Assembly: GCF_023111095.1 (NCBI RefSeq)
Contig: NZ_JALGYW010000005.1
Coordinates: 1-64,000 of the forward strand
DNA: 64,000 nt
Direction of reading: 5' to 3'
From: Maribellus sp. YY47
GTDB lineage: Bacteria > Bacteroidota > Bacteroidia > Bacteroidales > Prolixibacteraceae
This document shows, piece by piece, positions 24,143 to 40,878 of the stretch (position 1 is its first letter; the number at the start of each line of letters is the position of its first letter). The position numbers and the translations under genes are program-made. The notes beneath the pieces are model-generated. The model was given only the letters and a program-made list of their open reading frames with translations, was not told the origin of the DNA and ran no database searches.

Positions 24143-26086
24143 ATGAGAAACTGGAAGTTCAACCATATCGATTTTTCAACTTACCCGGATTATGACGGAA
24201 AGGATCTGGGAGTTTTTTGGTCGCCTGAGAAAACAGTGATCAAAATTTGGGCACCCACTGCCCAGTTGGTTGAGCTGCGTTTTTACAAAGACGGATTAAC
24301 GGGAGAAGCTTTTCATAAAACCCATCTGCAGAAATCAGGAAATGGTACCTGGACAACCGTGTTGAACGGTGATTACGAAGGGAAATACTACACCTTCCGT
24401 GTTAACGACGGCGACTGGCTGAATGAAGTTCCGGGCATGTACGCGCGTTGCGTGGGGGTCAACGGGCAACGTGGGCAAATTTATAACCCGAATGCCACGA
24501 ATCCGGAAGGTTGGGTCGAAGATACCGGACCACGATACCACAGTTTTACTGAGGCGATTATTTATGAAGCTCATGTTCGTGATTTTTCTATCGCCGATAA
24601 TTCGGGAATAGAAAATAAAGGGAAGTTTCTGGGATTTACCGAAGAAGGTACCCAATCTCCTCAGGGGCTTAAAACAGGTATCGATCATTTACAGGAACTG
24701 GGGATAACACATGTACATTTGCTTCCGGTAAACGATTTTGCTACGGTTGATGAGGAAAAGCCGCTTGAAAAATACAACTGGGGCTACGATCCGCTGCATT
24801 ATAGTGCACTGGAAGGTTCGTACGCTACCGATCCTTACGACGGCACCAAGCGAATTCAGGAGTTTAAGAAGCTGGTAAAAGCACTGCACGACAAGGGAAT
24901 TGGTGTTATTCTGGATGTGGTGTTCAATCATACGTATTTTACCAAAGAGTCGGTGTTTAACCAGATGGTACCCGGCTATTTTTACCGCCAAAAGCCCGAT
25001 GGTTCTTTTTCGAATGCAACCGGGTGTGGCAACGAAATTGCTTCGGAGCGCCACATGGTAAGGAAATACATTGTTGATACGCTGAAATATTGGGTGGAAG
25101 AATACCACATCGACGGATTTCGTTTCGACTTGATGGGGGTGCTCGACCTGGAGACCATGAAAACGATCCGGAAAGAAATGTCGAAACTAGATAAGGGATT
25201 GTTTCTTTACGGAGAAGGCTGGGCTGCCGATCAGAGTCCGATGTTCGAAGATCAACGGGCCGTAAAAAGAAATACGCCCCAATTACCCGGAATTGCCAGC
25301 TTTAACGACGATTTCAGGGATGGATTAAAAGGAAATCACGGCGATAAAAAATCGAAAGGATTTGTAAGTGGGCTTACTTTGCGGGAGGAAACGATAAAGT
25401 TTGGAATTGCCGGTGCTGTTTTTCATCCGCAAATCAATTTTGGCTACATCGAAACTGTAAAAAGTGCCTGGGCTGCTGAACCGGATCAATGTATCAATTA
25501 TGTTTCGTGTCACGACAATTATACCCTTTGGGACAAGCTCAAACAAAGTTTGCCCAAAGCCACCGATGAAGAACTGCGTAAACGCGTAAAACTGGCGGGG
25601 GCATTGGTGCTTACCTCGCAGGGAGTTCCGTTTTTACATGCAGGCGTTGAGTTTTGCCGCTCGAAAAACGGAAATGGGAACTCGTATAAATCACCTGATG
25701 CCATCAATCAACTGGATTGGACACGCAAGCACGATAATATCGACGTGTTTGAATATTTTCAGAAGTTGATTCAACTTCGGAAAAATCATCCGGCACTGCG
25801 GATTTCCAATGCTGAGGCGATCCGAAGTCATCTGAATTTTTGTACCCAGTATAAAATTGGGGTTGTTGCGTATTGTATTGAAGGGCAACATGTGGGTGAC
25901 AGCTGGGAGCGAGTTATGCTGTTTTTTAACGGGAATAACGAAGTTGTTGAAATGCCGCTGCCGGAAGGTAAGTTTAGGATGGTTGCCAACGGAGTCGAGA
26001 TCAATGAAGCCGGAATAGGGGAGTTGATTCAAAGTACGCTACAGGTTCTTCCGCTTTCAATGGTTGTGCTCGCTTTGGTGAAATAA
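24143..26086 (+). CDS. pulA: Type I pullulanase (GH13)
   Basis: Glycoside hydrolase of 647 residues that cuts alpha-1,6 branches in glycogen or starch-derived glucans. An N-terminal CBM48-like domain (LGVFWSPEKTVIKIWAPTA) precedes the GH13 barrel. The type I pullulanase signature YNWGYDP is present, along with DVVFNHTY, GFRFDLMG (nucleophile Asp), LYGEGW (acid/base Glu) and YVSCHDN. There is no signal peptide, so it probably works in the cytoplasm on glycogen or imported dextrins. A good terminator follows directly after the stop. Confidence 0.95.
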   Translation: MRNWKFNHIDFSTYPDYDGKDLGVFWSPEKTVIKIWAPTAQLVELRFYKDGLTGEAFHKTHLQKSGNGTWTTVLNGDYEGKYYTFRVNDGDWLNEVPGMYARCVGVNGQRGQIYNPNATNPEGWVEDTGPRYHSFTEAIIYEAHVRDFSIADNSGIENKGKFLGFTEEGTQSPQGLKTGIDHLQELGITHVHLLPVNDFATVDEEKPLEKYNWGYDPLHYSALEGSYATDPYDGTKRIQEFKKLVKALHDKGIGVILDVVFNHTYFTKESVFNQMVPGYFYRQKPDGSFSNATGCGNEIASERHMVRKYIVDTLKYWVEEYHIDGFRFDLMGVLDLETMKTIRKEMSKLDKGLFLYGEGWAADQSPMFEDQRAVKRNTPQLPGIASFNDDFRDGLKGNHGDKKSKGFVSGLTLREETIKFGIAGAVFHPQINFGYIETVKSAWAAEPDQCINYVSCHDNYTLWDKLKQSLPKATDEELRKRVKLAGALVLTSQGVPFLHAGVEFCRSKNGNGNSYKSPDAINQLDWTRKHDNIDVFEYFQKLIQLRKNHPALRISNAEAIRSHLNFCTQYKIGVVAYCIEGQHVGDSWERVMLFFNGNNEVVEMPLPEGKFRMVANGVEINEAGIGELIQSTLQVLPLSMVVLALVK

Positions 26087-26147: not shown

Positions 26148-27866
26148 TTACTTATCCCACGGCCAGGGTTTTATTTTGGTGCGAACAGCTTCCTTTTCCC
26201 ACAGGTCAGCTAATTCTTTTACCTTCTCCGGGTGCTTTTCAGCTAAATTGACAGTTTCAGAACGGTCATTCTCCATATCGTAAAGTTCCCAGGTATTTTC
26301 ATCTTCAGAAGTGAATTTTTTGAGCTTTTTTACTTTCGAAACCAATTTCCAGTTCCCCACTCGTATGGCTCGGTTTCCTTCGTGCTCCCAAATGATATAA
26401 TCACGATCGACGGGTTTGTTCTCAAATGCCGGAACCAGGCTTTTCCCCTCGTAGGGTTGTATTTCTCGGCCGTTGTATTCTTTCGGATAATCGAGGTGGG
26501 CCACATCAATACAGGTTGCCATAATGTCGATCAGGTGTGAAGGTTGACTGCGAAGCTCGTTGGTAGCCTTAATGCCATTGGGCCAGTGCACAATCATCGG
26601 AGTGGAAATACCCCCTTCGTGTACCCAGTGTTTGTACATACGGAAAGGAGTGTTACTTACATTTGCCCATTCTTCGCCATAAGCCACCCAGGTATCAGCA
26701 GGACCGGCCATTATTCCGCGTCCCCTGCGGACATATCGTCCGTCGCGGGCATATTCCGGTTTTCTTCCGTAAAGAATCGAGTCTTCGGCATACGGGCGTA
26801 AGATCTTTTGTTCTTCGGTAAGAGGCAAAGCAGGTTTGTTTTCACCTTGTGCTTCGGCACATCCACCGTTATCGTGCAGGTAGAAAATAATCGTATTCTC
26901 CAGCATTCCCCGGTTTTCCAGTGCAGTAATAATCCGTCCTATTCCCTGGTCCATAATATCGACCATGGCAGCATAAACTTCCATTCTCCGGGTCTGCCAT
27001 TCTTTCATTTCCTCGTCTTTCCATTCCGGAATATCAACGCCTCTTTCTGTCAATACACATCTTTCGTCGATAATTCCCAGTCTTTTCAGTTTGGCAAACC
27101 GCTCTTTGCGGGTTTCATCCCAGCCTTTGTCGTAAACTCCCTTGTATTTGGCTATTTCTTCTTCAGGAGCCTGTAACGGCCAGTGGGCGGCAGTGTATGC
27201 AACGTAAACAAAGAATGGCTTTTCGGCCGGATGTTCATTGATGAATTTTACGGTGGTGTCGCTGATTGCTTCGGTATAGTAAAAATCATTTCCGGGAGAA
27301 ATGTAGTGATTGCCACTAACCAGGCCGCTTGGATTGTAAAAGCTGCCCGAACCGGTAAGGGTTCCAAAATGCCTGTCAAATCCGCGCTGGAGCGGCCAGT
27401 TGCTTTTATCGCCGTCAGGTTCAACATCGTAACAAAGATGCCATTTCCCCGCCATGTAAGTGGAGTAGCCATTGGCTTTAAAAAGTTCGGCCAGTGTAAC
27501 CGCATTTTTACTCAAGTCGTCGCGATAGCCTTCTTCTTCATGATTATAAAATGCGAGTTGCCCCATTTCTGCCTGGTGAGGATATAAACCTGTTAGCAGC
27601 GATGCCCGTGTTGGGCTGCAACGGGCAGTGTTGTAAAACTGCGTGAAACGAAGGCCTGTAGCAGCCAGATGATCGATATTTGGAGTATTTATCTCGGACC
27701 CAAAACATCCAATATCGGAATATCCCATATCGTCGGTCAGGATCACAATTACATTAGGTCTTTGTGTTTGCTTTTCTTTTATTGTGCAATTGGTTGTGCC
27801 AATAAATAATATGCCCAGTAGCAGTCCGGTTAACCAGTGTTTTTTTAAAAAGTAATTTTTTCTCAC
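26148..27866 (-). CDS. Exported sulfatase (arylsulfatase family, S1)
   Basis: Formylglycine-dependent sulfatase that removes sulfate esters outside the cytoplasm. The Cys to be converted is in ARCSPTRASLLTG (Cys83 from the chosen start), and metal ligands are in ILTDDMGYSDIG and a later HDNGG. Length from the GTG at 27866 is 572 residues, giving a basic N-terminus and a hydrophobic signal helix (HWLTGLLLGILFIG) ending near Cys27, which could be a weak lipobox. A TTG at 27908 is also possible, and the sequence there has AGGAG. A hairpin separates it from the BACON gene upstream, so it may be transcribed alone or by read-through. Substrate unknown; an anaerobic or oxygen-dependent formylglycine-generating enzyme would have to be encoded elsewhere. 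Confidence 0.9.
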   Translation of the reverse strand: MRKNYFLKKHWLTGLLLGILFIGTTNCTIKEKQTQRPNVIVILTDDMGYSDIGCFGSEINTPNIDHLAATGLRFTQFYNTARCSPTRASLLTGLYPHQAEMGQLAFYNHEEEGYRDDLSKNAVTLAELFKANGYSTYMAGKWHLCYDVEPDGDKSNWPLQRGFDRHFGTLTGSGSFYNPSGLVSGNHYISPGNDFYYTEAISDTTVKFINEHPAEKPFFVYVAYTAAHWPLQAPEEEIAKYKGVYDKGWDETRKERFAKLKRLGIIDERCVLTERGVDIPEWKDEEMKEWQTRRMEVYAAMVDIMDQGIGRIITALENRGMLENTIIFYLHDNGGCAEAQGENKPALPLTEEQKILRPYAEDSILYGRKPEYARDGRYVRRGRGIMAGPADTWVAYGEEWANVSNTPFRMYKHWVHEGGISTPMIVHWPNGIKATNELRSQPSHLIDIMATCIDVAHLDYPKEYNGREIQPYEGKSLVPAFENKPVDRDYIIWEHEGNRAIRVGNWKLVSKVKKLKKFTSEDENTWELYDMENDRSETVNLAEKHPEKVKELADLWEKEAVRTKIKPWPWDK

Positions 27867-27943
27867 AAGTGTTTTTGTTAAAATGATACTCCTGTGATAT
27901 AAACTCAATATATATTAAACTGACTTAATTCTTCCTGTATAAT

Positions 27944-27979
27944 AGAGAGGCCGCCCCAGGAATATCGGGCAGCCTCTCT
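27944..27979 (-). terminator. Hairpin after the BACON-lipoprotein gene
   Basis: AGAGAGGCCGCCC (27944-27956) pairs with GGGCAGCCTCTCT (27967-27979) with one mismatch and a 10-base loop. It is 18 bases past the BACON gene stop on the minus strand. The downstream U-run is weak, so termination may be partial and leave the sulfatase linked. Confidence 0.65.
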
Positions 27980-27996
27980 GTTTATCCGGCAATTTG

Positions 27997-29499
27997 TTAA
28001 TTAGCCTTTACAAGTTTAATATTATCAAGGAACCAGCGGTTGGCTGTAGATACCTGCCATTGGGTCGGATGGATCGTAATCTTGGTGTCATTACTGATCG
28101 TAACACCGGTAAGCTGTACTTCGGCTCTGATCCACTCAAGTACGTGACCGCTCTCGAAACCTGCTTCGGGTATTTCAAATGTTACTTCATCGCTTCCATT
28201 GGTAACGATGACGATCAGGTTGACGGGATCTATTGTTCCCGATCCCTGGCGCATAGGACACCAGTCGAACGACAGCACGGTTGTTACACCAGAAGGAATG
28301 TCTTCAATTGCCGGAAGAATGATACCGGCCTGGTAGCCTGTTTTACCGAACTTCAGGTAGTTGTTCTGAAGATAGATACACTCGCCCGCACTCGTACTCG
28401 TGGGAGTAACACGCAGGAATTGATAACCTTCCTGAAGAAGCGCATCATTGGCAGTAATGCCCTCAACAACTGTAGCCGAAGACGATATCTGAGGGGCGGT
28501 TGCGCTGAGGTTGTCTGTCTCAACTGTCCGGCCGGCTGAGCTTACTTCAGCCCATGGGTTCAACCACTCAAAATCCTCTGCAAAATAGATGATTTCCACC
28601 ACCCCGAGATCTTCAATGGCAGTAGCGTTTAGCTTAATAACAGGAGCGGCCACACCTGCAAAATATCCAGTAACTTTTACCTTATGGCCATTCAACGGAG
28701 CAAGGTCCATATTTTCCGGTGCATCTGTAACAGCAACAGAATAATTAGCGCCTTCCACTGTTACGTTATTGCCATTCAATATGCCGCTGACCGTGATAAA
28801 AGTTCTCGAAGTGGAGGTATAGGTATCCACCTTATCGGTAATATCTGTCGCGGCAGGATAGGTTACCGCACCTCCAGAGGCATTAACGTTTGCTTCGTCG
28901 CATTCTACGTATGGAAGCGAGTGGCTATCGGAGAGCTTTGTGCCTTTTACCGAAACGTTGTCGCCAATGCTTACTGCAGAAGAGCTTTGCATAAAGATAT
29001 TCACAGTTCCATCGCTAACAATGAAGCCTTTTGTTGTGACTGCCGTTACGATGGCCTGGGGCACAATAACGACCGTTTCGTTTTCCAATTCTGCCAATTC
29101 CGCAAGCGTATATTCCTCACAGTCGCGATATTTGTCTCCTTCCTGAGAAATTATCACTTCGGCCCGGCTTGCCAGTGTGCCGCCCTTGAACACAAGTGCC
29201 GCCTTGCGGGGATTGTCAACAGCGCCACCGCGTATATTTTCCGTTACATTAATTGTAACATCCATGGTTCCTGAGCCGGAAACGGGAGTGATTGTTACCC
29301 ATTCGGGAACTTCCGTAATCCAATCGGCATCAGCATAGACGGTGATGGTTTTTTCCGATGTTCCGGTCGCTTCAAAATTCAGCGTGCCAACGCTTGCCAA
29401 AACAGCCCTTGACAGTGCGCTCTCTTCATCGGAGCACCCCTGAAAGAGGCCTGCAAACACCAGCAGAATAGAGAAGATGATATAAGTTATACGTTTCAT
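27997..29499 (-). CDS. BACON- and OB-fold-containing surface lipoprotein of the SusCD locus
   Basis: Lipoprotein of 500 residues from the ATG at 29499, with a signal peptide ending GLFQGC. A BACON domain lies at about 35-120 (ADADWITEVPEWVTITPVSG). Two OB-like beta segments follow: one from about 125 (YTLAELAELENETVVIV and VSIGDNVSVKG) and one from about 225. The C-terminal half (about 330-500) resembles a carbohydrate-binding or choice-of-anchor jelly roll, ending with WFLDNIKLVKAN. It has no catalytic motif I recognise, so it is probably a surface ligand-binding protein. It is 34 bases or more after the susD stop in the same direction and takes the place of the SusE/F-type protein of the system. 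Confidence 0.8.
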   Translation of the reverse strand: MKRITYIIFSILLVFAGLFQGCSDEESALSRAVLASVGTLNFEATGTSEKTITVYADADWITEVPEWVTITPVSGSGTMDVTINVTENIRGGAVDNPRKAALVFKGGTLASRAEVIISQEGDKYRDCEEYTLAELAELENETVVIVPQAIVTAVTTKGFIVSDGTVNIFMQSSSAVSIGDNVSVKGTKLSDSHSLPYVECDEANVNASGGAVTYPAATDITDKVDTYTSTSRTFITVSGILNGNNVTVEGANYSVAVTDAPENMDLAPLNGHKVKVTGYFAGVAAPVIKLNATAIEDLGVVEIIYFAEDFEWLNPWAEVSSAGRTVETDNLSATAPQISSSATVVEGITANDALLQEGYQFLRVTPTSTSAGECIYLQNNYLKFGKTGYQAGIILPAIEDIPSGVTTVLSFDWCPMRQGSGTIDPVNLIVIVTNGSDEVTFEIPEAGFESGHVLEWIRAEVQLTGVTISNDTKITIHPTQWQVSTANRWFLDNIKLVKAN

Positions 29500-29533
29500 A
29501 GTTTTGCATTTTTTATGAATTACCATTTTTCAG

Positions 29534-31342
29534 TTAAAAAGAGAGTCCGTCATTCCAACCCGGGTTCTGAGTAAGATTGTGGTTAAGCGAACGCTCGTTA
29601 ATCGGAATCGGGTAGAGATAATCGCGCCCCTCGTCGAAAGGAGTGCGTTCGATGTTTTTATGATAGTAAACGTAACCTTTATTGCCTTCTGAAAGGATGA
29701 TCTCGTTTCCGATCTCATACGCGACTCCTGAAGTAACGTCAGGTTTGGGTGTTCCATTGGCATAAAGTGTAACATCAGCCTTTCCGTCACCACTTAGGTC
29801 GTAAGCTCCGGGGCCGGGGAAATACATGCCGTAAGTAGACTGGTCGATGCAATAGCCCGCTTTCCAGCGTACCAGGTCGTCGAAGCGAAATCCCTCCTGA
29901 TTTAGTTCAATAGCCCGTTCACGTCGGATTTCAAGGATGACGCCTTTGTTTGCGCCTGTAACATTCGGGTAGCCTGTTTCCGCGTCAGAAAGGTATCTGT
30001 CGGGATTGGCGTTGGCAACGTCCTTGTTAAGGTTAGGCATTCCTGCACGCTGACGGATCAGATTGATAGATTGGTCAAGGTCAGTTTGTGTCAAGGTACC
30101 AAGTTCGGCCTTTGCTTCGGCATAATTGAGGAGCACCTCGGCATAGCGGTAAACCGGCAAGTCGCAAGTAGAACGGTCGTTACGATCGACATTGCCGCCC
30201 GATGCCTTAGGATCCTGTACAAATTTAATGGGCTGATAGCCGGTAACACTTACTGAAAGATCGGGCGCCAGCACGGTTGTTTGACCAATGCGAGTATAGC
30301 CCGGCGTACGGATACTTTGGGCCAGACGGGGATCGCGGTCTGTCATTTCTTCGATGAACGACATCTCCTGCCAGCCCGACTGATTGGTGAATGCCGTACC
30401 GTCTTTTTTCAGATAAGTATTTACCATTTTGCGGGTCAGTCCCGGTCGTCCCTGTGTTGGTACCAAGGTGTGGGCAGTAGCGTTATGATAGATGCTAAGT
30501 CCGTAGTCGAATTTGATAGCGAGAATATACTCGTTCGGATCAGCATTTTCTTGTGCAAAAAGCGTCAGATAGTCGCTTTCCGGATGATTGGTACTGTACA
30601 GGCTGTATGCGCCATCATTCATTAAATTCTGCGCCGCTGTTGCCGCTTGTTCCAGATAATATTGGTAGTCGTGCCCTTCCAGGTTGACAGAGTGATATTT
30701 CCGGTAAGTACCTTCGTACAGGCAAAACTGAGCTTTTAATGCCATAGCTGCATATTTGTTGACACGATAAGGACTGCTTGTTTCCTTTGCCTTGCTGGGG
30801 AGATTGGCAATGGCGTAGTCAATGTCCTCAATCATTTTGGTCATAACAAATTCGCGCGAATCGCGGGCATTGTAGAGTTCTTCATCTGCCGAACCCAGTT
30901 CAGTTTCGTACCAAGGCACATCGCCGAAGCGTTTTATTTTCTCGAAATAAAAATAGGCACGGAAGAACCGGGTTAGTGCTGTATATTTAATAACAGCATC
31001 CTCGTCCTTGCATTGACCGGCATAGGCTATCAATGTGTTCATCCTGCGCAAGTCGGTCCACGACCATCCGCCACCCGAAGCAGGAACGGTGCGCTTGGTG
31101 CCTCCCAGCATTTCGTCCGAAAGGTTTTGGCAAACATAAAGGTCGCTCTGCATATCATAAGGCGATTTGTCCAGCAGGTTATTGTAGAATGGGTTGCTGA
31201 AAAGCTGAAGATCTGTTTCCGTCTGGAAATAATCTGCCTGTGAAATCTGGCTCAATGGCTTCAGGTCAAGAAGATCATCACAAGCCGAAAGCCCCATAAG
31301 CAATGTCATGGCTACTATAGTAAAACGTTTCATCTTAATCAT
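29534..31342 (-). CDS. susD-like: SusD/RagB-family outer-membrane substrate-binding lipoprotein
   Basis: Surface lipoprotein of 602 residues that works as a lid on the adjacent SusC channel. Signal peptide with lipobox GLSAC (Cys21 from the first Met), then the usual DDLLDLKPLSQISQADYF, TPR-like helices (FFRAYFYFEKIKRFGDVPWYE) and the C-terminal RRERAIELNQEGFRFDDLVRWK seen in RagB/SusD. The start could also be the ATG three codons later at 31333. Only 12 bases separate it from the susC stop. The ligand of such proteins cannot be predicted from sequence; here the neighbours suggest a phosphodiester rather than a plain glycan. Confidence 0.95.
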   Translation of the reverse strand: MIKMKRFTIVAMTLLMGLSACDDLLDLKPLSQISQADYFQTETDLQLFSNPFYNNLLDKSPYDMQSDLYVCQNLSDEMLGGTKRTVPASGGGWSWTDLRRMNTLIAYAGQCKDEDAVIKYTALTRFFRAYFYFEKIKRFGDVPWYETELGSADEELYNARDSREFVMTKMIEDIDYAIANLPSKAKETSSPYRVNKYAAMALKAQFCLYEGTYRKYHSVNLEGHDYQYYLEQAATAAQNLMNDGAYSLYSTNHPESDYLTLFAQENADPNEYILAIKFDYGLSIYHNATAHTLVPTQGRPGLTRKMVNTYLKKDGTAFTNQSGWQEMSFIEEMTDRDPRLAQSIRTPGYTRIGQTTVLAPDLSVSVTGYQPIKFVQDPKASGGNVDRNDRSTCDLPVYRYAEVLLNYAEAKAELGTLTQTDLDQSINLIRQRAGMPNLNKDVANANPDRYLSDAETGYPNVTGANKGVILEIRRERAIELNQEGFRFDDLVRWKAGYCIDQSTYGMYFPGPGAYDLSGDGKADVTLYANGTPKPDVTSGVAYEIGNEIILSEGNKGYVYYHKNIERTPFDEGRDYLYPIPINERSLNHNLTQNPGWNDGLSF

Positions 31343-31354
31343 AGCTTAATCGTG

Positions 31355-34300
31355 TTAAAAAGTAATATCTACACCAAACATAATGGTCTTTTGCCAGGGA
31401 TAGAAAGCGTTGTTGTCAACGCCGCTTCTGTCGATGGCTCCTTCAGGATCAAGGTATTTCGTATGTTTCTTAAGGGGCGACCAATAGCAAAGATTTTCAC
31501 CCGAAAAATAGAAACGAAGCACATCAATGCCTACTTTATTCGTCAAACCAGACGGAATAGTGTAACCGATGGTCAGGTTTTTTAAACGCAAATAACGTAG
31601 GTTCTGGAGATAACGGTCATTGACCTTGCTCAAAGGACCGGAAGTGGCTGAATAGGCCATTGGTCGCGTGAAGTATGCATCGCGGTTATCTTCTGCCCAT
31701 ACATCTTTCAGGAAATCTTTCTGCAAATAAGTGAGATAAGGATACGAATAAGGTCCCCAGAATGGCATTGACTGTCCGGTAGGATACCAGTAATGATTTC
31801 CGGTGCCCTGGAAGAATACGGATGCATCGAAACCATACCAGCGAATGCTTGTATTAATTCCGTAAGAAAAACTTGGAAGTGAGTTGCCCAAAATCTTACG
31901 GTCGCCCGGATCGTTAACACTATTGCTGCCGATACCCAGTTTTTTATCCCCGTCAAGATCTAAAAACTTAAGGTCGCCCGCCTGCCAGCCACCAGTAATC
32001 CGGTTGTTGATATAACTCAAATCAACCTCCTGTGCATATGCCTGCGCTTCTTCGGTGCTCTGATACAGTCCGTCGGTAACGAACCCCCAGATTTCTCCCA
32101 GGCGCATACCTTCGTAATAGCTCTTGGCAAAAGTTTTGTCGGCATTATCGTATTTAGTGATGGTACTCATGTAGTTGCTGATATTAACGCCAATGCTGTA
32201 CTCCAGCGGTTTGTTTACCAGGGTTAGCTGATCCCTCCACGAGGCAGACAATTCGTAACCTTTTGTGCGCAAATCGGCGGTATTCATTTTCGGAACGGAA
32301 GCTCCGTACACTGCTGGCAGTTCAATACCGTCGGTCAACATGTCTTTGGTATCGCGAATATAAACGTCGGCCGTAAAATTCAGCCGGTTATTGGCCATAG
32401 TGAGGTCGAACCCAAGGTCCCATTGCGCTGCCGTTTCCCAGGTTAGGTCGGAGGCCACAGGGGAACCCAGCGACGAATACTTACCCATAGTGCTGCCTTC
32501 GTTGAATGAATATCCTGCGAAGTCGTTGATAGAAACCAGGCGCAAATAGGCATAATAGGAAGAAACATTTTGATTACCCAGGCTTCCGAAAGAGGCCCTC
32601 AGCTTCAGGTTGTCGATTGTGCCCCTGGCCGATTCGAAGAAAGGTTCTTCCGAAATGCGCCAGCCTGCCGATGCCGAAGGGAACCATCCCCACCGACTGT
32701 CAGCGTCAAAACGCGATGTTCCGTCGTAACGACCGCTGACCTCAAGGAGATAACGGCCCTTGTAATCGTAGTTGACACGACCGAAAACGCCGGCCAAGGC
32801 ATATTCATTCTGCCCGCCTCCTACTCCTGTGATGGTTTGGCCCTCCGAATTTTGACCCACGAGGTCTAAGTCATCCAGCGTTGAAGAAGAAAGATATTCG
32901 CCGTATGCAGAGAGATTTTTCAGTTTCAGGGTTTCGTAATTGAACCCAACAACACCCGACAGATTATGCTCGCCAAAGGTTTGGGTATAATTGGCATATA
33001 CGTTCGTCGAGTAGTAATTGCGCGTATTAACCGATTCGTCGAGGCGGTTGGCGCCAGCGCCGGTTGCATACTCGCCAAGAGGCGCATCCGGATATTCGCG
33101 GTAAAACATGTTGTTGGATCGGCTTGTATTACGTGTCTGATACTGGCGGTAGGTAAAGTCGGCCGTAATGCTTAACGGTTTGATCGGAGTGGCGACAAGA
33201 CGGGTAGTGTTAGACAAATCAGATGCCCTGTTTACGTTACGGTGCGACCCTTCGCCAAGGATAATGTGGCGGCCGTTACCTATTTTATAGTTCAGGTATG
33301 GCGTACTGTAAAGCCATGACCCGTCAGGGTTTTTCATCGGGAAATTTGCAAGTGCATGCCTTGCACCATAAGCAAGCGTATTCTCTACGCTGCCATCTCC
33401 CTGAAAAGTATATTGCGAAGCATAGAACGAGGTATTATTGGTCATCGTCATCCACTTGTTAATCCGGAAGTCGATCTTCGAACGCAAATTGTATTTATTG
33501 AAAATATCAGGATGAACTTTCAGGATACCCTCCTGGCGATCATATGCTCCCGATACAAGATACTTGACATCCTTCGTTCCTCCACTGATGGATATACTGT
33601 GTTGTTGCACAGGATGGTCATCCCGGTATTGCATGTGCCACCAGTCGTAGTTGCCGTAATAAACCCACTGGTTTCGTCCGTTTCTTACTTCTTCAACTAC
33701 CCAGGGACGATCGGGATTCTCTGTCTTGTCGTTTACACGGGCTAATAGCTGCTGCATATCACGGTCGGTATAGTTGACGTAGAGCGTTCCCGAGTCAGCC
33801 TTCCAAAACTTGTTGATGGTATAAACCGACCAATATCCGGTAGTTTCATAATCGGTAGAAGTTGTCGGGCTTTCCCATCCATAGCGGCCGCTGTAACGAA
33901 CGGTCGCTTTATTGTCTTGCGCTGATCCCGATTTTGTTGTAACCAGGATAACCCCAAAAGCCGCACGCGCACCGTAAACTGCAGCAGCTGACGCATCTTT
34001 AATGACCGAAATTGATTCTACGTCGTTTGGGTTAACACGGTTCAGGTCGCCCACAGCACCATCGATCAGCACCAGGGGCGAAGCGCCGTTGATGGAAGTT
34101 ACGCCACGGATATTGATGTCGGGCGAACTGCCGGGTACCCCCGAAGAAGTAGTGATGTTAAGTCCCGATACAGAGCCTTGCAACATATTCGTCAGCGAAT
34201 GCGACACACGGTTTTCAAGCCCTTTGCTTTCTACCGTTGTAACGGCGCCGGTCAGGTTAACCTTTTTCTGTGTTCCATAGCCGACAACCACCGTTTCATT

Positions 34301-34618
34301 AATTAAAATGACGTCTTCCTGCATATAAACCGTGATGTCATTTTGATCCGGGGCAACATTAACTTTCTGTGTCAGGTAGCCCACATAAGAGATATTTAAA
34401 ACAACAGCCTCTGATGGAACCAGAAGATTGAAAGATCCATCTGCAGCAGTAACCGTACCTTGAGTGGTACCATTAAGTTGAATGGTTACTCCTACAAGGG
34501 CTTCTTGCTGGGTATCAAAAACTTTTCCCGATACCTTTCTATTCTGGGCGGAAAGAGCCGAAAAGCCCTCCACCGCAAATAATAATAGCAATAAAATGAA
34601 TGATTTGAACGCTTTCAT
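31355..34618 (-). CDS. susC-like: SusC/RagA-family TonB-dependent outer-membrane transporter
   Basis: Outer-membrane beta-barrel of 1087 residues that imports the ligand bound by the SusD-like protein, driven by TonB. A signal peptide (1-24) is followed by a carboxypeptidase-regulatory-like domain (about 27-110, starting RKVSGKVFDTQQEALVGVTI), the TonB-box-like region near ETVVVGYGTQKK and a plug domain (LQGSVSGLNITTSSGVPG, then VESISVIKDASAAAVYGARAAFGVI). The barrel ends in a C-terminal aromatic (VDITF). There is no N-terminal STN anti-sigma-interacting domain, so control by a dedicated ECF sigma factor is unlikely. The gene lies 30 bases after the metallophosphoesterase and is likely co-transcribed with it. 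Confidence 0.96.
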   Translation of the reverse strand: MKAFKSFILLLLLFAVEGFSALSAQNRKVSGKVFDTQQEALVGVTIQLNGTTQGTVTAADGSFNLLVPSEAVVLNISYVGYLTQKVNVAPDQNDITVYMQEDVILINETVVVGYGTQKKVNLTGAVTTVESKGLENRVSHSLTNMLQGSVSGLNITTSSGVPGSSPDINIRGVTSINGASPLVLIDGAVGDLNRVNPNDVESISVIKDASAAAVYGARAAFGVILVTTKSGSAQDNKATVRYSGRYGWESPTTSTDYETTGYWSVYTINKFWKADSGTLYVNYTDRDMQQLLARVNDKTENPDRPWVVEEVRNGRNQWVYYGNYDWWHMQYRDDHPVQQHSISISGGTKDVKYLVSGAYDRQEGILKVHPDIFNKYNLRSKIDFRINKWMTMTNNTSFYASQYTFQGDGSVENTLAYGARHALANFPMKNPDGSWLYSTPYLNYKIGNGRHIILGEGSHRNVNRASDLSNTTRLVATPIKPLSITADFTYRQYQTRNTSRSNNMFYREYPDAPLGEYATGAGANRLDESVNTRNYYSTNVYANYTQTFGEHNLSGVVGFNYETLKLKNLSAYGEYLSSSTLDDLDLVGQNSEGQTITGVGGGQNEYALAGVFGRVNYDYKGRYLLEVSGRYDGTSRFDADSRWGWFPSASAGWRISEEPFFESARGTIDNLKLRASFGSLGNQNVSSYYAYLRLVSINDFAGYSFNEGSTMGKYSSLGSPVASDLTWETAAQWDLGFDLTMANNRLNFTADVYIRDTKDMLTDGIELPAVYGASVPKMNTADLRTKGYELSASWRDQLTLVNKPLEYSIGVNISNYMSTITKYDNADKTFAKSYYEGMRLGEIWGFVTDGLYQSTEEAQAYAQEVDLSYINNRITGGWQAGDLKFLDLDGDKKLGIGSNSVNDPGDRKILGNSLPSFSYGINTSIRWYGFDASVFFQGTGNHYWYPTGQSMPFWGPYSYPYLTYLQKDFLKDVWAEDNRDAYFTRPMAYSATSGPLSKVNDRYLQNLRYLRLKNLTIGYTIPSGLTNKVGIDVLRFYFSGENLCYWSPLKKHTKYLDPEGAIDRSGVDNNAFYPWQKTIMFGVDITF

Positions 34619-34648
34619 TGATTCATAGGTATTTAATTAGAATAATTT

Positions 34649-36637
34649 TTATTTAGTTTTATAAGCATCCGTAGAGAAGGCTTTGGGACGTTGCATATTC
34701 TCTGTCCAGATGTGCCCAAATTCATCTTTGACGGTGATGGACAGGTCTGTATCTGCATCGTCGGCTTTCACCTTGAAGAAGTGCGTGAACTTTTCGGTAA
34801 TAAAGCTGGGAGTCGACGTAAGACTAGCCGAGTTGAAGCGCTTCACGGAAAGGGCGGCAATATGCAGCGGGTCGTATGCCCAGACTTCTTCAGGAGTCAG
34901 GCACTTTCCGGATTCGTCAGTTACGGTCAGCGTCCAGCGCGGATTCCAGTTCCAGATGTTTATCAGCACTTCGTTATTGTTGTTTGCCGGGTAGGCATCA
35001 ACATACTGCATGTACTTATTCTTAACCGAAGCAGAAACAGAGGATGGCATCAGCGGAACATCTGCCAGCGAAAAGCTGACATTGTTTAGGTCGTAACTGC
35101 GGAATTGGTAATCTTCCGGCCATCCGGTGGCTTTATAAACATATTGCAAATCTTTCCCCGAAACATCCCAAATCGAATATCCGCCTGGCGTACCGTCAGG
35201 ACTGATATGAACACCCGGCGTTAAGTTACCCGACCACCACCAGGAGGCGCAAACCGCTCCGGCGTTATGTTCATAGAAATCATTTCCGCCTGTAACGGCA
35301 GCTTGCGGCGTAACGTTGAAAGTCATGTGCGTATGCCCCGTCACAAAATGCACTTTATAGCCATTCAGAATGTTGAATAGTTGTTCGGTGCTGGTTATAT
35401 CGTGGTCTATCTTAAATTCGGCAGTTTCCGTCGGATAATATACTTGTGCGTGCATCGCAACAACCAAAGGCGTTGATTTGTCGACATAAGCGAGGTCTTT
35501 TTCAAGCCAGCTCAACTGTTCAGCAGAAGTCAGTTTTTTGTATTTGCGGGAGGTTGTTCCGTCGTACTCACTGCAATCAATATCGTCCATAACAACATAA
35601 TGAACTTCACCTATATTAAACGAGTAATAGGTAGGGGCAATGTGGTTCATGTATTTGAGTTCCGCCGTAAAATCGGAAGTTGCCTGGTAATCGTAGTCGT
35701 GGTTACCGATGGTATGGAATATTTGCAAATTTTTAACCTGACTGTTTATGGTGTTCAGGTATTCGGGTAAGCCAAAGTTATTTGAATACCAGTACAAATC
35801 CCAGGTCATGTCGCCCAGGGCAATTGCATACATTTTTTCAGAAGCGTTGGCGTTCATGTAGGTGTTCAGGTCGGAGGTAAAAGCCGAAAACTGGCTAAGG
35901 TCGTTGGTTCGGGCGGCAAGGTGCATGTCGCCAAGCATGAATACTTTGTAGGCATCCTGTCCGTTAACCTTCTGAAGTGTAAAGTCTACTCGCTCTACGG
36001 TGTTGGCGCTGGCTTTTAATGTTTGAAAGAACTGTGGAAGCACTCCCGAAGAGGGCGCTTCGTAATTTGCAGGCACAGAAATAAAAACGTAGTTTCTTTT
36101 CTTTGCAGACTTGAGTTGGTAGATGCCTTCTTCATTTGTGGTGGTTACTTCCACACCGTCTGAAACCACGACGCCTTCAAGGCCGCCTTCTTCCGATTTA
36201 ACGATGCCGTATACCGTAGTGCCTTCGTCAGGCGTAAATAAAAAATCAACAATATTGAGGTATATCTTTCCTACAGACTTTTTTCGCTCATCGCGTTTAA
36301 CGGAAACATTGTAAGTGCCGGTTTTACATTCATTCGAAATCTGCACGGTGAAGCCTGTGGAGGAGACAGCGGTGACAGGACAAACGTAAGATATGCCACC
36401 AGACTCCAGGATGAATGAATCGGACGTTTTGAGTCCGCCTCCACCTTGCGCCGTAAAAACATATTCACCGCCCTTGGTTATATCGATGGTGGACGGGAGG
36501 CTAATCTGTATATTAAAATCATCTACAGGCTCTTCGTTGTCGTCCCCGCCTTCGCAACCATACAGCGATGAAATTACAGCAAAAACTAAATACAATAAAA
36601 TTTTATTGTATTTCAGGTTCGTTTTCATTTTTCTCAT
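34649..36637 (-). CDS. Surface-exposed calcineurin-like metallophosphoesterase lipoprotein
   Basis: Lipoprotein of 662 residues (signal peptide ending SLYGC) in the three-part family with a MetallophosN domain, a calcineurin-like phosphoesterase core and a MetallophosC domain. The N-terminal part includes a carboxypeptidase-regulatory-like fold (TVYGIVKSEEGGLEGVVVSDG). Dimetal ligands are visible in the order GDMHLA, GDMTWD, GNHDYD, AMHAQV and TGHTHM. It should hydrolyse a phosphomono- or diester at the cell surface. It is the first gene of the susCD unit and lies downstream of glpQ, glpT and glpD on the same strand, so an organic phosphodiester such as a glycerophospho-compound is a reasonable substrate (inference). 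Confidence 0.88.
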   Translation of the reverse strand: MRKMKTNLKYNKILLYLVFAVISSLYGCEGGDDNEEPVDDFNIQISLPSTIDITKGGEYVFTAQGGGGLKTSDSFILESGGISYVCPVTAVSSTGFTVQISNECKTGTYNVSVKRDERKKSVGKIYLNIVDFLFTPDEGTTVYGIVKSEEGGLEGVVVSDGVEVTTTNEEGIYQLKSAKKRNYVFISVPANYEAPSSGVLPQFFQTLKASANTVERVDFTLQKVNGQDAYKVFMLGDMHLAARTNDLSQFSAFTSDLNTYMNANASEKMYAIALGDMTWDLYWYSNNFGLPEYLNTINSQVKNLQIFHTIGNHDYDYQATSDFTAELKYMNHIAPTYYSFNIGEVHYVVMDDIDCSEYDGTTSRKYKKLTSAEQLSWLEKDLAYVDKSTPLVVAMHAQVYYPTETAEFKIDHDITSTEQLFNILNGYKVHFVTGHTHMTFNVTPQAAVTGGNDFYEHNAGAVCASWWWSGNLTPGVHISPDGTPGGYSIWDVSGKDLQYVYKATGWPEDYQFRSYDLNNVSFSLADVPLMPSSVSASVKNKYMQYVDAYPANNNNEVLINIWNWNPRWTLTVTDESGKCLTPEEVWAYDPLHIAALSVKRFNSASLTSTPSFITEKFTHFFKVKADDADTDLSITVKDEFGHIWTENMQRPKAFSTDAYKTK

Positions 36638-36796
36638 TCGTTTAAAGTGTATTTATTCTTGTTAGGCAAGAATTTTCTGTAAATGTTTCGGTTAATTCAT
36701 TGTAAAACAATTCACTTTCTTTTCGATGAAATACTTCTGGTCTTCTTCCTTATTCTCTCCGTCCAGACATTCACTTCCGATCCCAGCTTGTGCGTA

Positions 36797-36843
36797 CCTC
36801 ACCCCATTCGGGGTGTTGTTGAAAGGCCGTAAACGGGGTGAGG
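36797..36843 (-). promoter_or_regulatory. Alternative-hairpin element in the glpQ to metallophosphoesterase gap
   Basis: In the 328-base gap (36638-36965) the minus strand reads CCTCACCCC at 36843-36835, CACCCC at 36815-36810 and GGGGTGAGG at 36805-36797. The last segment can pair with either of the first two, giving a 9-bp stem with a large loop or a 6-bp stem with a GAAT tetraloop. No U-run follows, so it is not a plain terminator. A weak -7 match, TATTTTTG, lies upstream at 36935-36928. I see no gene in the rest of the gap. Confidence 0.45.
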
Positions 36844-36965
36844 AGTTGTGCACAATTATAAATTTTCATCTGGTTGGTGTCAGAAGTAATTCAATAAGAC
36901 GAATTGTTATTTTAGGCTGAGCTGATCCAAAAATATTTCATAGCTGGCTTGGTCTTTTGTGTGGT

Positions 36966-37733
36966 CTATTTCAACTGTTCGCGTAACCAGCCCGGACGGT
37001 TGGTGGTGATGGAACTTACGCCAAGGTCGGCAACTCGTTTTGCTTCTTCGGGGCTGTCTACGGTCCAGCACCAAACATCCAACCCGAGTTCTTTGGCTTT
37101 GGCCATATTTTCCGAAGTAACGAGTTTCGAGTTTACATCAACTCCTTTAAGACCAACGGCAGCACATTCGCTAATTTTTGCGTCCAGGTCTTTCTCCACC
37201 GATGTGAGCCAGTAGCAGTCATTTTTCGGGAATGCCTTTTGCGCGGCAACAATCGACTCCCAGTTAAAAGCGATGAATTTTACCTGCTTGGCTTTGCCTG
37301 ATTTTTTGATGGCTTTTTCCAGGACCGGCATGATTTCCGGACCGGTTTTAATTTCGATTACCAAATATCTTCCTTTAGGGATGTTTTTGAGAACTTCTTC
37401 AACAAAAGGAATCTTTTCGCCGGTATATTTTTCATCTTTCCACTTACCGGCATCTAATTTACGCAGTTCCTTAGACGTTGTTTCCGGCACAATATGATCG
37501 GCTCCGGTTGTTCTTTTCGTGTTTTTGTCGTGTATGGCCACAATTCGGTTATCGGGAGTCAGGTAAATGTCAATTTCAACTCCGTCAGCACCAAGTTCCC
37601 ATCCCAGTTTCGCTGCTGCAACCGTGTTCTCCGGAGCCAGATATGACGCTCCTCTGTGACCTACAAACTCCACCTGGGCCAACACGGACAGGCTGGCTGC
37701 GATGAAGAAAAATAATAGAAATGTTGTTTTCAT
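36966..37733 (-). CDS. glpQ: Exported glycerophosphodiester phosphodiesterase
   Basis: Periplasmic GDPD-family enzyme of 255 residues that splits glycerophosphodiesters to glycerol-3-phosphate and an alcohol. A signal peptide (MKTTFLLFFFIAASLSVLAQ) precedes the family motifs FVGHRGASYLAPENT, GADGVEIDIYLTPDN with its Glu-Asp metal pair, and VAIHDKNTKRTT; the end SITTNRPGWLREQL is also typical. It lies 147 bases after the glpT-like gene on the same strand, placing a phosphodiesterase, a glycerol-3-phosphate transporter and a glycerol-3-phosphate dehydrogenase in a row. Confidence 0.93.
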   Translation of the reverse strand: MKTTFLLFFFIAASLSVLAQVEFVGHRGASYLAPENTVAAAKLGWELGADGVEIDIYLTPDNRIVAIHDKNTKRTTGADHIVPETTSKELRKLDAGKWKDEKYTGEKIPFVEEVLKNIPKGRYLVIEIKTGPEIMPVLEKAIKKSGKAKQVKFIAFNWESIVAAQKAFPKNDCYWLTSVEKDLDAKISECAAVGLKGVDVNSKLVTSENMAKAKELGLDVWCWTVDSPEEAKRVADLGVSSITTNRPGWLREQLK

Positions 37734-37880
37734 TCGTTTGAATTTTTAATCATTTAATTTTATAAGACTGATCATCAGGTATTGCTTTCAGCCAATTTAA
37801 TTTTTGTTCTAACTGTTTCATTTTATTTCGGGAACGAAACTGTAAATAGAATCTTTCCCATTTCGTTAACAGGTTTTGGT

Positions 37881-39224
37881 TTACACTGCCAGCCTCTGTT
37901 TTTCCTTGTTCCAGGTAAATACAGTGAAAATAATGGAGACTACGCAGGCTGCCAGCATTAAAATAAATGCAGCATCCCAGCCCCAGGAGTCAACAATAAA
38001 ACCAATGGCAATGTTTGCAAGCAGCGCTCCGCCCAGGTAGCCAAACAGACCGGTTAATCCGGCTGCAGTACCCGCAGCTTTTTTGGGAACCAAATCCAGG
38101 GCCTGTACGCCAATCAGCATTACTGGTCCGTAAATCAGAAAGCCAATGGCAATCAGAGCGATGTTATCGATAACAATTTGCCCGGCAGGATTTTGCCAGT
38201 AAACGTAGATGGCCACCATTACCAAAAGCATGTAGATCACGATGGCTGGCGCCCTTCTTCCTTTAAATACTTTATCTGAGATCCATCCGCATAATAAGGT
38301 TCCAGGTATTCCGGCGTATTCGTAGGCGAAATAGGCCCATCCTGATTCAGTAATGGAAAACCCTTTGGCCTCATCGAGGTAGGTCGGTGCCCAGTCAAGT
38401 ACTCCGTATCGCACCAGGTAAATCATGGCATTGGCAAAAGCAATCAGCCATAAAAACTTGTTTTTGAAAACATAGGTAAAGAATATTTCTTTTGTTGAAA
38501 ATTCCTTTTCATAGCTTTCGTTGTAATCACTCGGATAATCGTTTTTATGTGCTTCTATATTTGGAAGGCCACAAGATTGAGGTGTATCCCTGATTAGAAG
38601 GTAGGCAATAAATGCGATTCCCATGGCGATCAGAGCCGGGAAATATAATTTACTGTGCCAGTTCCCAAAAATTGCGACTCCCACCACGGCGAGTGGGCCG
38701 ATTAGTCCGCCGCCAACGTTGTGTGCGACGTTCCATATCGACATCTTGGTACCGCGTTCTTTTGTCGAAAACCAGTGAACCATTGTACGTCCGCAGGCAG
38801 GCCATCCCATTCCTTGGAACCATCCGTTAATGAAAATTACAATGAACATGATGGTTACGGAAGAAGTGAGAAATGGTAGTGTTCCCATGCTGAAAATGGT
38901 GACTGCTGAAAGCAACAAGCCTAAGCTCAGAAACACGCGGGCGTTGCTTCGGTCGGAAACACCTCCCATTAAGAATTTGCTCAACCCGTAAGCGATTGAA
39001 ACGGCTGAGGCCACAATGCCCAGCTGGCCTTTGGTGTATCCCTGGTCGATAAGATCGGGCATAACCAGCGAGAAGTTTTTTCGAACCAGGTAATAACCAG
39101 CATAACCAATGAAAATTCCCAAAAAAACCTGGAGGCGTAATTTTTTATACGTTGGATCAATTTTCTCCTTGGGTAATAGTTCTTTATGTGCAGGAGGTGC
39201 TAAAATATTTTTTAAGCTAAGCAT
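37881..39224 (-). CDS. glpT: GlpT-type glycerol-3-phosphate (organophosphate:Pi) antiporter
   Basis: Major facilitator protein of 447 residues with about 12 membrane helices. It belongs to the organophosphate:phosphate antiporter group: LRLQVFLGIFIGYAGYYLVRKNFSLVMPDL is the characteristic first helix with the YxxRKN segment, followed by LGIVASAVSIAYGLSKFLMGGVSDRSNAR. Hexose-phosphate transporters (UhpT) share this core, but the flanking glpQ and glpD genes favour glycerol-3-phosphate. It would import glycerol-3-phosphate released in the periplasm in exchange for phosphate. It lies 85 bases after glpD. Confidence 0.88.
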   Translation of the reverse strand: MLSLKNILAPPAHKELLPKEKIDPTYKKLRLQVFLGIFIGYAGYYLVRKNFSLVMPDLIDQGYTKGQLGIVASAVSIAYGLSKFLMGGVSDRSNARVFLSLGLLLSAVTIFSMGTLPFLTSSVTIMFIVIFINGWFQGMGWPACGRTMVHWFSTKERGTKMSIWNVAHNVGGGLIGPLAVVGVAIFGNWHSKLYFPALIAMGIAFIAYLLIRDTPQSCGLPNIEAHKNDYPSDYNESYEKEFSTKEIFFTYVFKNKFLWLIAFANAMIYLVRYGVLDWAPTYLDEAKGFSITESGWAYFAYEYAGIPGTLLCGWISDKVFKGRRAPAIVIYMLLVMVAIYVYWQNPAGQIVIDNIALIAIGFLIYGPVMLIGVQALDLVPKKAAGTAAGLTGLFGYLGGALLANIAIGFIVDSWGWDAAFILMLAACVVSIIFTVFTWNKEKQRLAV

Positions 39225-39309
39225 TTAATTTTTTGAGTTTTATTATGGTGTGTAAAAATATATTTCCAGTATTTATGTTTTGTTACATTTTCTTTACAAT
39301 TAAGTTGTT

Positions 39310-40878
39310 TTACGGCAAGTAGCTTTTGGCAATTTCATTGTAGGTTTCGATTTGCTCATTTTCCCATATTTTGTCTTTCTGAAGTTCGTATGCCATAATG
39401 CTGGCAACTTTAGGGGCGACTTCAATCGATGCTTTCGCATCCAGATAGAGGATTCTTATTCTGCGAGCCAATACATCATCAACAGTGCGTGCCATTTCCT
39501 TGCGTACTGCCCATACCACTTCGCCAACAGTAAAATCGTATTTGTCAATTAGCTTGGTTGCGTACTCCGGATTTTCTTTCTGAAGAAGAATAATCTCGTC
39601 CTGGTCGCTGCCGTATACATAAAGCCAGTGATTGTAGTCGGGGTTTTCGCGGTATCCATGTATTTTCAGCTCTTTGGTTTTACAAGACTTTGACTGAAGT
39701 TTCTTCCTTTTAATGGCCAGATCAACGGTTTCTTCTGCCATAATGCGATAGGTGGTCCACTTGCCTCCTGTGATGGTGATCAGGTCCGAATCGGAAACAA
39801 TCAGCTTGTGGCTACGCGAGATTTCTTTGGTTTTGGTTTCGTCTGCATGTTTCTGTGGTGCAGCCAGAGGTCGCAAGCCTGCAAAAACACAAAGCACGTC
39901 GTTGCGCGTAGGTTTTCGGGTAAGGTAGCGGCCCGCTGTTTCGAGAATGAAATCAATTTCTTCCTGAAGTGCTTTGGGCTCCAAAACAAAGTCTTTTACC
40001 GGCGTGTCTGTTGTTCCCAGAATCACCCGGTTGTGCCACGGCACGCCAAACATTACCCGTCCGTCGCTGGTTTTCGGGATCATGATCGCGTCATCTCCAC
40101 CCAGAAAGGATTTGTCGACAACCAGGTGGACTCCCTGACTGGGCCTGACCAGCGGCTTTTCTTCCGGAGCATCCATCTTTATCATATCGTCAACGAAGAT
40201 TCCGGTTGCATTAATAATGCATTTCCCTTTCAGGGTAAATTTATCGCCAGTTATTTCGTCGCGCGCAACAATGCCGGAAACTTTACCGTCGCTGTCTTTT
40301 GTTAGTTCGATAACCTTTGCATAGTTTACAACGGTTGCGCCATTTTCAGCAGCGGTCTGTGCCAGATTTACAGCAAGGCGGGAATCATCGAACTGGCCAT
40401 CCTGATAAGCAACTCCTCCTTTTAGGTTCTTCTGCTCAATCTCCGGAACATGTTTTATTACTTCCTTTTTACTCATCGGAATGGAATGCCCAAGACCCAT
40501 TTTCCCGGCGAGGAAATCATAAACCGTAAGACCGATCGTATAAAACGGTTTCTCCCACCATAAATAGTTTCCGATAATAAAGCGTTGGTTTTTTACGAGA
40601 TGAGGCGCGTTTTTTCGAAGATAGCCTCTTTCGCGCAGCGCTTCTCTAACCAATGCTACGTCGCCTTTTTGCAGGTAACGAACTCCTCCGTGTACCAGCT
40701 TCGTGCTTCGGCTCGATGTCGCTTTTGCAAAATCTGACTGTTCCAGCAAAACGGTTTTGTAGCCCCGGGTAGCAGCATCCACTGCAATTCCCAGTCCCGT
40801 AGCTCCTCCTCCCACAACAATGAAATCCCATTCTTCTTTTGATGATTTCAATTGTCTTATAAAGCCCTCTCGGTTCAT
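39310..40878 (-). CDS. glpD: FAD-dependent glycerol-3-phosphate dehydrogenase
   Basis: Flavoprotein of 522 residues that oxidises glycerol-3-phosphate to dihydroxyacetone phosphate and passes electrons to quinone at the membrane. The N-terminal dinucleotide fold reads FIVVGGGATGLGIAVDAATRG, followed by the family motif SSRSTKLVHGGVRYLQ, GQFDDSRLAVNLA and, later, the FAD end TGGKWTTYR. The C-terminal domain shows the helical cap of GlpD. It is the first gene of the minus-strand series that continues with glpT and glpQ. Confidence 0.95.
   Translation of the reverse strand: MNREGFIRQLKSSKEEWDFIVVGGGATGLGIAVDAATRGYKTVLLEQSDFAKATSSRSTKLVHGGVRYLQKGDVALVREALRERGYLRKNAPHLVKNQRFIIGNYLWWEKPFYTIGLTVYDFLAGKMGLGHSIPMSKKEVIKHVPEIEQKNLKGGVAYQDGQFDDSRLAVNLAQTAAENGATVVNYAKVIELTKDSDGKVSGIVARDEITGDKFTLKGKCIINATGIFVDDMIKMDAPEEKPLVRPSQGVHLVVDKSFLGGDDAIMIPKTSDGRVMFGVPWHNRVILGTTDTPVKDFVLEPKALQEEIDFILETAGRYLTRKPTRNDVLCVFAGLRPLAAPQKHADETKTKEISRSHKLIVSDSDLITITGGKWTTYRIMAEETVDLAIKRKKLQSKSCKTKELKIHGYRENPDYNHWLYVYGSDQDEIILLQKENPEYATKLIDKYDFTVGEVVWAVRKEMARTVDDVLARRIRILYLDAKASIEVAPKVASIMAYELQKDKIWENEQIETYNEIAKSYLP

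Follow-up and report, generated by a model that had tools for sequence, protein, structure and literature searches.

A Sus-type locus of Maribellus sp. YY47 that adjoins phosphodiesterase and glycerol-phosphate genes

Annotators commonly take SusCD genes for glycan importers. The glp regulon of Escherichia coli comprises a periplasmic GlpQ, GlpT and GlpD. Here we analyse a stretch of 64,000 nucleotides of Maribellus sp. YY47, family Prolixibacteraceae (the window; positions 1 to 64,000 of contig NZ_JALGYW010000005.1), in which eight minus-strand open reading frames (ORFs) fill positions 26148-40878: glpD, glpT, glpQ, a metallophosphoesterase gene (MPE), susC, susD, a lipoprotein gene and a sulfatase gene. 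The closest described system is PusCD of Flavobacterium. It responds to inorganic phosphate (Pi) starvation, and its neighbours are enzymes (phosphatases, phosphodiesterases and phosphonate enzymes) together with inner-membrane organophosphate transporters. The PusD proteins are polyphyletic by the authors' account, and lipid head groups and nucleic acids were proposed as substrates (PMC8115612). The block likewise has a SusC/SusD pair with phosphodiesterases in place of carbohydrate-active enzymes (CAZymes) and, like some of the Flavobacterium clusters, an inner-membrane organophosphate transporter (PMC8115612). With an MPE and a glycerophosphodiester phosphodiesterase (GDPD) beside SusCD, it has the gene content of a Pus-type locus. 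Pi induction has been demonstrated for the Flavobacterium systems. SusCD beside phosphodiesterases and organophosphate transporters is already known in principle (PMC8115612); of the initial annotation's view that the block is an unusual, non-glycan Sus system, the link to phosphodiesterases holds and the novelty of the principle does not. The terms GlpQ and GlpT gave no match in the main text of that paper (GlpD was not among the terms), and no paper joining SusCD with GlpQ, GlpT and GlpD was among the matches listed in a search that covered part of the literature.

The block shares SusC, SusD, surface lipoproteins and a surface hydrolase with Sus-type polysaccharide loci, but its hydrolases are phosphodiesterases, its inner-membrane carrier is GlpT and no CAZyme, the defining constituent of such loci, was found, so that by content it is not a polysaccharide utilisation locus (PUL). 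GlpQ, GlpT and GlpD are common to the block and the E. coli glp regulon; unlike in that regulon, the glp genes here adjoin a TonB-dependent outer-membrane importer and a surface enzyme. We consider it fairly probable that the block serves to acquire glycerol-phosphate diesters as nutrients, through an importer of the SusCD type. Support comes from the gene families and their order, the catalytic residues, conservation, a dedicated GlpD, the recurrence of GlpT with MPE or SusCD, and the membership of SusD in a phosphodiesterase-linked clade; from these we infer the substrate, the order of the steps and shared expression.

Phosphodiesterase neighbours of the SusD clade

The association of the importer clade with phosphodiesterases is the strongest evidence and the more general result, and it is the test that bears on the ligand. 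A search of 393 genomes with the window SusD alone (E ≤ 1e-100), in which the three top candidates of each genome were scored, found 20 matches in 16 genomes, the window included. An MPE, EEP, GDPD, GlpT-type carrier or GlpD gene is located on the same strand within 8 kb in 18 of these 20; in the remaining two, L109 and L117, a contig end truncates the neighbourhood. Among the 34 other SusD genes of the window genome, used as controls, two have a phosphodiesterase or glp neighbour. One of the two is L066:823-12717 (own genome C14), where, as in L076 and L077, another MPE type is found near a different SusCD.

The association extends to a named set made up of the best 80 of 588 confirmed stretches, at least two of which (L155 and L216) repeat genomes seen before. 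An MPE, EEP or GDPD stands beside SusD in 59 of these 80 loci (MPE 32, EEP 29, GDPD 4), and the set includes Bacteroides, Phocaeicola, Alistipes, Cryptobacteroides, Dyadobacter, Spirosoma and Flavobacteriaceae. This is a six-frame count with looser thresholds (MPE 1e-15, EEP 1e-12 and GDPD 1e-15 instead of 1e-20); picked ORFs gave 52 of 80, a lower figure because long antisense ORFs hid some genes. Under the same looser thresholds the controls still stand at 2 of 34. Weak control matches to an MPE-like protein in L146 (5e-12) and to a carrier in L141 (3e-9) fell below the thresholds. SusD ORFs under 380 amino acids were not counted, and the phosphodiesterase profiles, built from proteins of the same loci, were applied alike to the 34 controls. 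Pfam confirms EEP in L072 (the locus of L110), L108, L115, L116, L118, L119 and L120; the calls in L111, L112, L114 and L121 were made by BLAST or a home-made profile. Fisher p values of 3e-10 (18 of 20) and 6e-12 (59 of 80) ignore shared descent and are only a guide, because the rows share descent.

The SusD proteins of the clade are approximately 36-66% identical to the window SusD, and the phosphodiesterase association was retained while they diverged. In a quick SusD tree, which carries long-branch warnings and leaves out the duplicates L072, L152 and L153, the presence of a phosphodiesterase or glp neighbour, taken as a label, requires 10 changes as compared to 23 in shuffles; several tree rows were fetched by MPE or GlpT and are biased, and the count of 18 in 20 takes only rows chosen by SusD similarity. 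This SusD branch probably feeds on phosphate-linked molecules. If the whole SusCD branch serves phosphodiesters, many predicted polysaccharide loci of gut and environmental Bacteroidota are misnamed, and these bacteria would have a dedicated way of feeding on lipid head groups, or on polymers linked by phosphate, that come from other organisms. NAGPA phosphodiester glycosidases were also seen beside SusCD of the clade (L086:17648-19900, L194:13530-14774, L202:13594-16881 and L220:11740-13797), with L202 combining His_Phos_2 and NAGPA domains in a single protein.

Genes of the block and their conservation

The eight genes, their order and their strand are as the initial annotation gave them, and Pfam and NCBIfam agree with its gene identities except for the BACON/OB label of the lipoprotein. 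The glp part consists of glpD for an FAD-dependent sn-glycerol-3-phosphate dehydrogenase (39310-40878; Pfam DAO and DAO_C; best NCBIfam match PRK12266 at 297 bits, under the cut-off of 360), glpT for an inner-membrane sn-glycerol-3-phosphate:phosphate antiporter (37881-39224) and glpQ for a GDPD (36966-37733; PF03009, E 4e-38), spaced by 85 and 147 bp. The MPE gene (34649-36637) is followed by susC for a TonB-dependent outer-membrane channel (31355-34618; TIGR04056, 879 bits), susD for a surface substrate-binding lipoprotein (29534-31342; PF07980, E 6e-52) and the gene of a second, beta-rich surface lipoprotein (27997-29526), with 7-30 bp between them; the adjacent TIGR04056 and PF07980 genes mark a Sus-type SusCD importer. 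The sulfatase lipoprotein gene (26148-27908; PF00884, E 1e-61) follows after 88 bp. No glycoside hydrolase (GH) family was found among the eight proteins in Pfam and NCBIfam scans, to which no CAZy-specific library was added, and the earlier remark to this effect stands.

Of the 61 genomes compared, 37 belong to the genus, a number that includes the window genome. Three of the 37 keep the gene order between glpD and the lipoprotein gene: the window genome and the sister species G032 (Maribellus luteus XSD2) and G004, with 81-97% protein identity; MPE (93%) and GlpT (92%) have orthologues in these two and in no other of the 37. As the order is kept in two sister species, the linkage is more than chance, and it is stable in the three species though a HAD gene and the sulfatase gene were gained or lost. 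The initial annotation's proposal of joint use is upheld in that the glp genes travel with SusCD in three genomes and a GlpD is dedicated to the block; the sulfatase and a strict tie to glp genes drop out of it.

GlpT clears the TIGR00712 equivalog cut-off for glycerol-3-phosphate transporters (717.8 bits, cut-off 632.6), and its alignment columns contain the Arg/His/Arg set that we take to be the binding site of E. coli GlpT. GlpQ has the motifs HR, E-x-D and HD, presumably the motif set of the GDPD family, and its nearest solved structures are GDPDs; a plain signal peptide, read by eye, places it in the periplasm. The block copy of GlpD is found only in the three genomes with the block, where it is 89% alike, while GlpDs of 54-62% identity are located elsewhere in 28 of the 37 genus genomes; the window genome itself has a second GlpD at G000:C4:92234-93784, 62% identical. 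We rejected the possibility that the block GlpD is the common GlpD of the genus: it is a separate paralogue, by its sequence apparently a second copy dedicated to the block. Both sister species have a gene for a HAD-IB phosphatase, with a signal peptide by eye, between glpT and glpQ (L062:4359-5288). The gap aligned with G032 and G004 shows that this gene is deleted in the window genome, where its first seven codons are left on the minus strand (37841-37861); a search of the own genome, run without a positive control, gave no match to the phosphatase. Compared with solved structures, the sister-species protein gave weak HAD matches only and nothing pointing to choline phosphate.

Acidic residues after the lipoprotein cysteine mark surface export in Bacteroidota. 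The MPE (MetallophosN, Metallophos and MetallophosC domains) has, by eye, a lipobox and an acidic stretch after the cysteine. Residues D237, D276, N312, H396, H435 and H437 are invariant across 19 aligned rows; H239 is kept in 10 of the 19, the long forms, and is Gln in nine short paralogues. We take these seven to be metal ligands, and the set appears complete in the MPE. A plain Foldseek list for the MPE model (predicted local distance difference test, pLDDT, 86.3) was weak, with a modelled YydB chain, 5'-nucleotidases and then mostly antibody chains; class III phosphodiesterases were named only in a second structure comparison, with Rv0805 (Z 20.6), Lmo2642 (Z 20.3) and GpdQ of Enterobacter aerogenes (Z 20.1, 225 residues, 2.9 Å) tied. 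The modelled MPE resembles GpdQ in its catalytic fold and differs from it as a surface lipoprotein with MetallophosN and MetallophosC domains and 14% identity. A class III fold would allow a glycerophosphodiesterase role of the MPE and does not prove it.

Lipoboxes were also read by eye in SusD, the second lipoprotein and the sulfatase, and acidic residues follow the cysteine of the second lipoprotein as well. The weakly BACON-like N-terminal domain of the latter scores 15.9 bits (PF13004, E 0.013) against a cut-off of 25, which leaves the BACON label below threshold; the OB part is unconfirmed, the model (pLDDT 69.9) being too weak for it or for a structure search. The gene after susD is kept in G032, G004, G061, G144 and G403, and the lipoprotein is probably a binding protein. 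The sulfatase has a C-S-P-T-R motif, read by eye. As a pathway member, which the initial annotation had made it, the sulfatase was rejected: it is missing in Maribellus luteus and set 336 bp after the lipoprotein gene in G004, and for these reasons is probably accessory rather than part of the core pathway.

Between glpQ and the MPE gene, a 328-bp gap (36638-36965, minus strand) is a possible internal promoter region. It is approximately 135 bp longer than in the sister species, both of which lack the extra DNA, and a perfect 6-bp inverted repeat around GAAT lies within this extra part at 36800-36815. Promoter consensus scans of the window were little or no better than shuffles: 37 matches to a Bacteroidetes-type consensus against 34.2 expected, and 36 sigma-70-type sites against a mean of 26.9 (sd 5.2) in shuffles; terminators numbered 15 against 17.8.

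The glp genes and the importer genes are not separate in all of the relatives examined, as a refutation in the initial annotation's terms would require, and GlpT with MPE or SusCD recurs. An order-level GlpT search (393 genomes, E ≤ 1e-60, best 3-4 candidates per genome scored) gave 27 GlpT-type matches in 24 genomes. In G244 and G391 the arrangement is GlpD-GlpT-SusC-SusD; in G259, where a HAD-IB gene (63%) and a DeoR-type regulator are close by, it is GlpD-GlpT-MPE-SusC, and in G042 it is GH13-SusC-SusD-GlpT-MPE-GH31-MPE. GlpT is located upstream of an MPE-SusC-SusD-lipoprotein module in the Bacteroidales metagenome-assembled genomes L174, L179 and L185; in L169 it starts 9.3 kb before susD, with two ORFs between GlpT and MPE. 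In the transporter tree the GlpTs beside SusCD in other families fall in different lineages, none grouping with the window GlpT, which suggests that GlpT and SusCD may have been joined more than once, in a tree that cannot separate gain from loss.

Proposed route and rival explanations

In the route that we propose, the surface MPE would trim a phosphodiester-containing substrate, SusD and the lipoprotein would bind the product and SusC would import it with TonB energy. Periplasmic GlpQ would then free sn-glycerol-3-phosphate, in the sister species perhaps with help from the HAD phosphatase, whose signal peptide would place it in the periplasm; GlpT would bring glycerol phosphate in, exchanging phosphate, and GlpD would oxidise it to dihydroxyacetone phosphate. 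The lipoboxes and signal sequences, read by eye, fit this surface-to-cytoplasm order of compartments, as the initial annotation had arranged them. Candidate substrates are a lipid head group, a teichoic-type polymer or a phospho-decorated glycan. Phospholipid head groups are a direct fit to GlpQ. Teichoic-type polymers are consistent with the related loci in which phosphodiesterases are mixed with GH3, GH20, GH31, NAGLU-type and NAGPA enzymes. Bacillus GlpQ breaks down wall teichoic acid, with specificity for sn-glycerol-3-phosphate (PMC7086022).

Several observations weigh against this reading. The three blocks of the genus come from close relatives and count as one event, and the 328-bp gap parts glpQ from the MPE gene. 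Only 7 of the 27 GlpT-type matches lie within 8 kb of a SusC or SusD gene of the same strand; the seven include G403, with a more distant carrier (36%), and G325, where GlpT is perhaps separate from SusCD, since two ORFs sized like a sigma/anti-sigma pair intervene. The MPE-SusC-SusD-lipoprotein module has no glp gene within approximately 9 kb in G061, G144 and G403, and a GlpT-type gene lies within 8 kb in only 6 of the 80 named loci. The surface module is wider than its glp link and, because it is often without glp genes, need not be tied to glycerol phosphate. A PUL-type hybrid two-component regulator (L079:11493-15515; Reg_prop, kinase, receiver and AraC-type helix-turn-helix domains), encoded divergently from the MPE-SusCD module of G061, suggests that the inducer is glycan-like. 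The GpdQ-like fold predicted for the MPE shows no function. In 21 of the 80 named loci no MPE, EEP or GDPD was found; five of these lie near contig ends (L168, L183, L192, L193 and L196), and among nine of the remaining 16, a scan of the neighbours revealed three loci with NAGPA, one with PHP, one with a Metallophos enzyme and four without a phosphoesterase.

The modules without glp genes in many relatives, the 20 GlpT-type matches without same-strand SusC or SusD and the glpQ-MPE gap would all suit a glp scavenging operon that simply precedes an independent MPE-SusCD system whose ligand, such as nucleic acid, inositol phosphate or a cyclic nucleotide, is unrelated. We regard such a juxtaposition as quite unlikely: GlpT and GlpD recur with SusCD or MPE in other families in differing orders, the GlpD is dedicated rather than the common genus copy, and the order is kept in three species despite the changes to the HAD gene and the sulfatase. 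It is possible, if rather doubtful, that the substrate is a glycan with phosphodiester groups (glycerol phosphate, phosphoethanolamine, phosphocholine or N-acetylglucosamine (GlcNAc)-1-phosphate links) and that the glp genes use one released part, the MPE stripping the groups at the surface or opening the polymer. A GlcNAc-specific EEP phosphodiesterase has been described (PMC10704324). Glycan-directed genes accompany several related loci. G042 has GH13 and GH31 beside two MPEs and GlpT; a second locus of G032 and G004 has a rhamnosidase-type (GH78-like) enzyme; G055 has GH3 together with a GDSL esterase, and L114 and L120 have NAGLU-type, GH20 and GH2 enzymes. NAGPA adjoins GlpD-GlpT-SusCD in G244 and occurs also in L194, L202 and L220. 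Set against these, the block has no GH by Pfam and NCBIfam, and the substrates of the GlpQ family are glycerophosphodiesters, not phosphodiesters of sugars.

A block that served phosphorus supply alone would have no need of GlpD, since GlpD provides carbon and electrons and GlpT gives up phosphate for the glycerol phosphate that it takes in. This, together with the PUL-type hybrid regulator beside the module in G061, makes it highly improbable that the block is a general phosphate-starvation system of the PusCD type, which would draw phosphorus from mixed organophosphates with carbon incidental. What speaks for such a system is the Pi-induced Flavobacterium PusCD with its phosphodiesterases and inner-membrane organophosphate transporters, and the PUSI table, which lists a pf00149 enzyme (PMC8115612).

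A second locus, possibly of a glycerol-1-phosphate type

The sister species G032 and G004 have a second locus (L064:810-18189 and L065). It starts with GlpD, GDPD, a 496-amino-acid ORF, SusC (37%), SusD (40%), the rhamnosidase-type enzyme and MPE, continues with a Big/propeller protein, an RbtT-type carrier, a glycerol-1-phosphate-dehydrogenase-like enzyme and a HAD phosphatase, and ends with a GlpT-like carrier of 38-39% and then a GDSL esterase. The dehydrogenase matches PDB entry 9h4x (E 1e-43) and NCBIfam PRK00843 at 173 bits, below the cut-off of 413. The window genome has a version of this locus on C4 (L151:4800-15122), beside the other GlpD, without SusCD and the long MPE and with weak MPE-like and carrier-like matches. 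The dehydrogenase-like enzyme, a GlpT-like carrier and a GDPD are close together in L068:9297-13024 (own genome C28), L069 and L071, whose carriers possibly transport sn-glycerol-1-phosphate.

The carrier tree has a supported clade of six, which takes in all five carriers that have such a dehydrogenase within 6 kb; two of these five are near-identical orthologues, and one is also beside GlpD. The 15 carriers found beside GlpD alone lie outside the clade. This split by dehydrogenase or GlpD neighbours suggests that a single kind of locus exists in two stereochemical versions. Tentatively, and with the whole proposal improbable as it stands, a phylum-wide Bacteroidota SusCD clade would import phosphodiester-linked molecules, its glycerol-phosphate members coming in mirror-image sn-glycerol-3-phosphate and sn-glycerol-1-phosphate versions. 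In this joint proposal the sn-3 version would be the window block, which ends in GlpQ-GlpT-GlpD, and the sn-1 version the second locus of G032 and G004 and its C4 counterpart, ending in a distinct GlpT-like carrier and a glycerol-1-phosphate dehydrogenase. If true, the two would suit wall-teichoic-type versus lipoteichoic-type or archaeal-lipid-type material.

Elsewhere, TonB-dependent receptors with a poor SusC score are located approximately 3 kb upstream of GlpT-GDPD pairs (L096:3851-6379 and L097:751-3393; the Pfam scan covered L096), possibly another outer-membrane solution for the same nutrients. Next to the block, on the opposite strand of the window, a 647-amino-acid ORF (24143-26086) resembles an alpha-amylase, as judged by eye.

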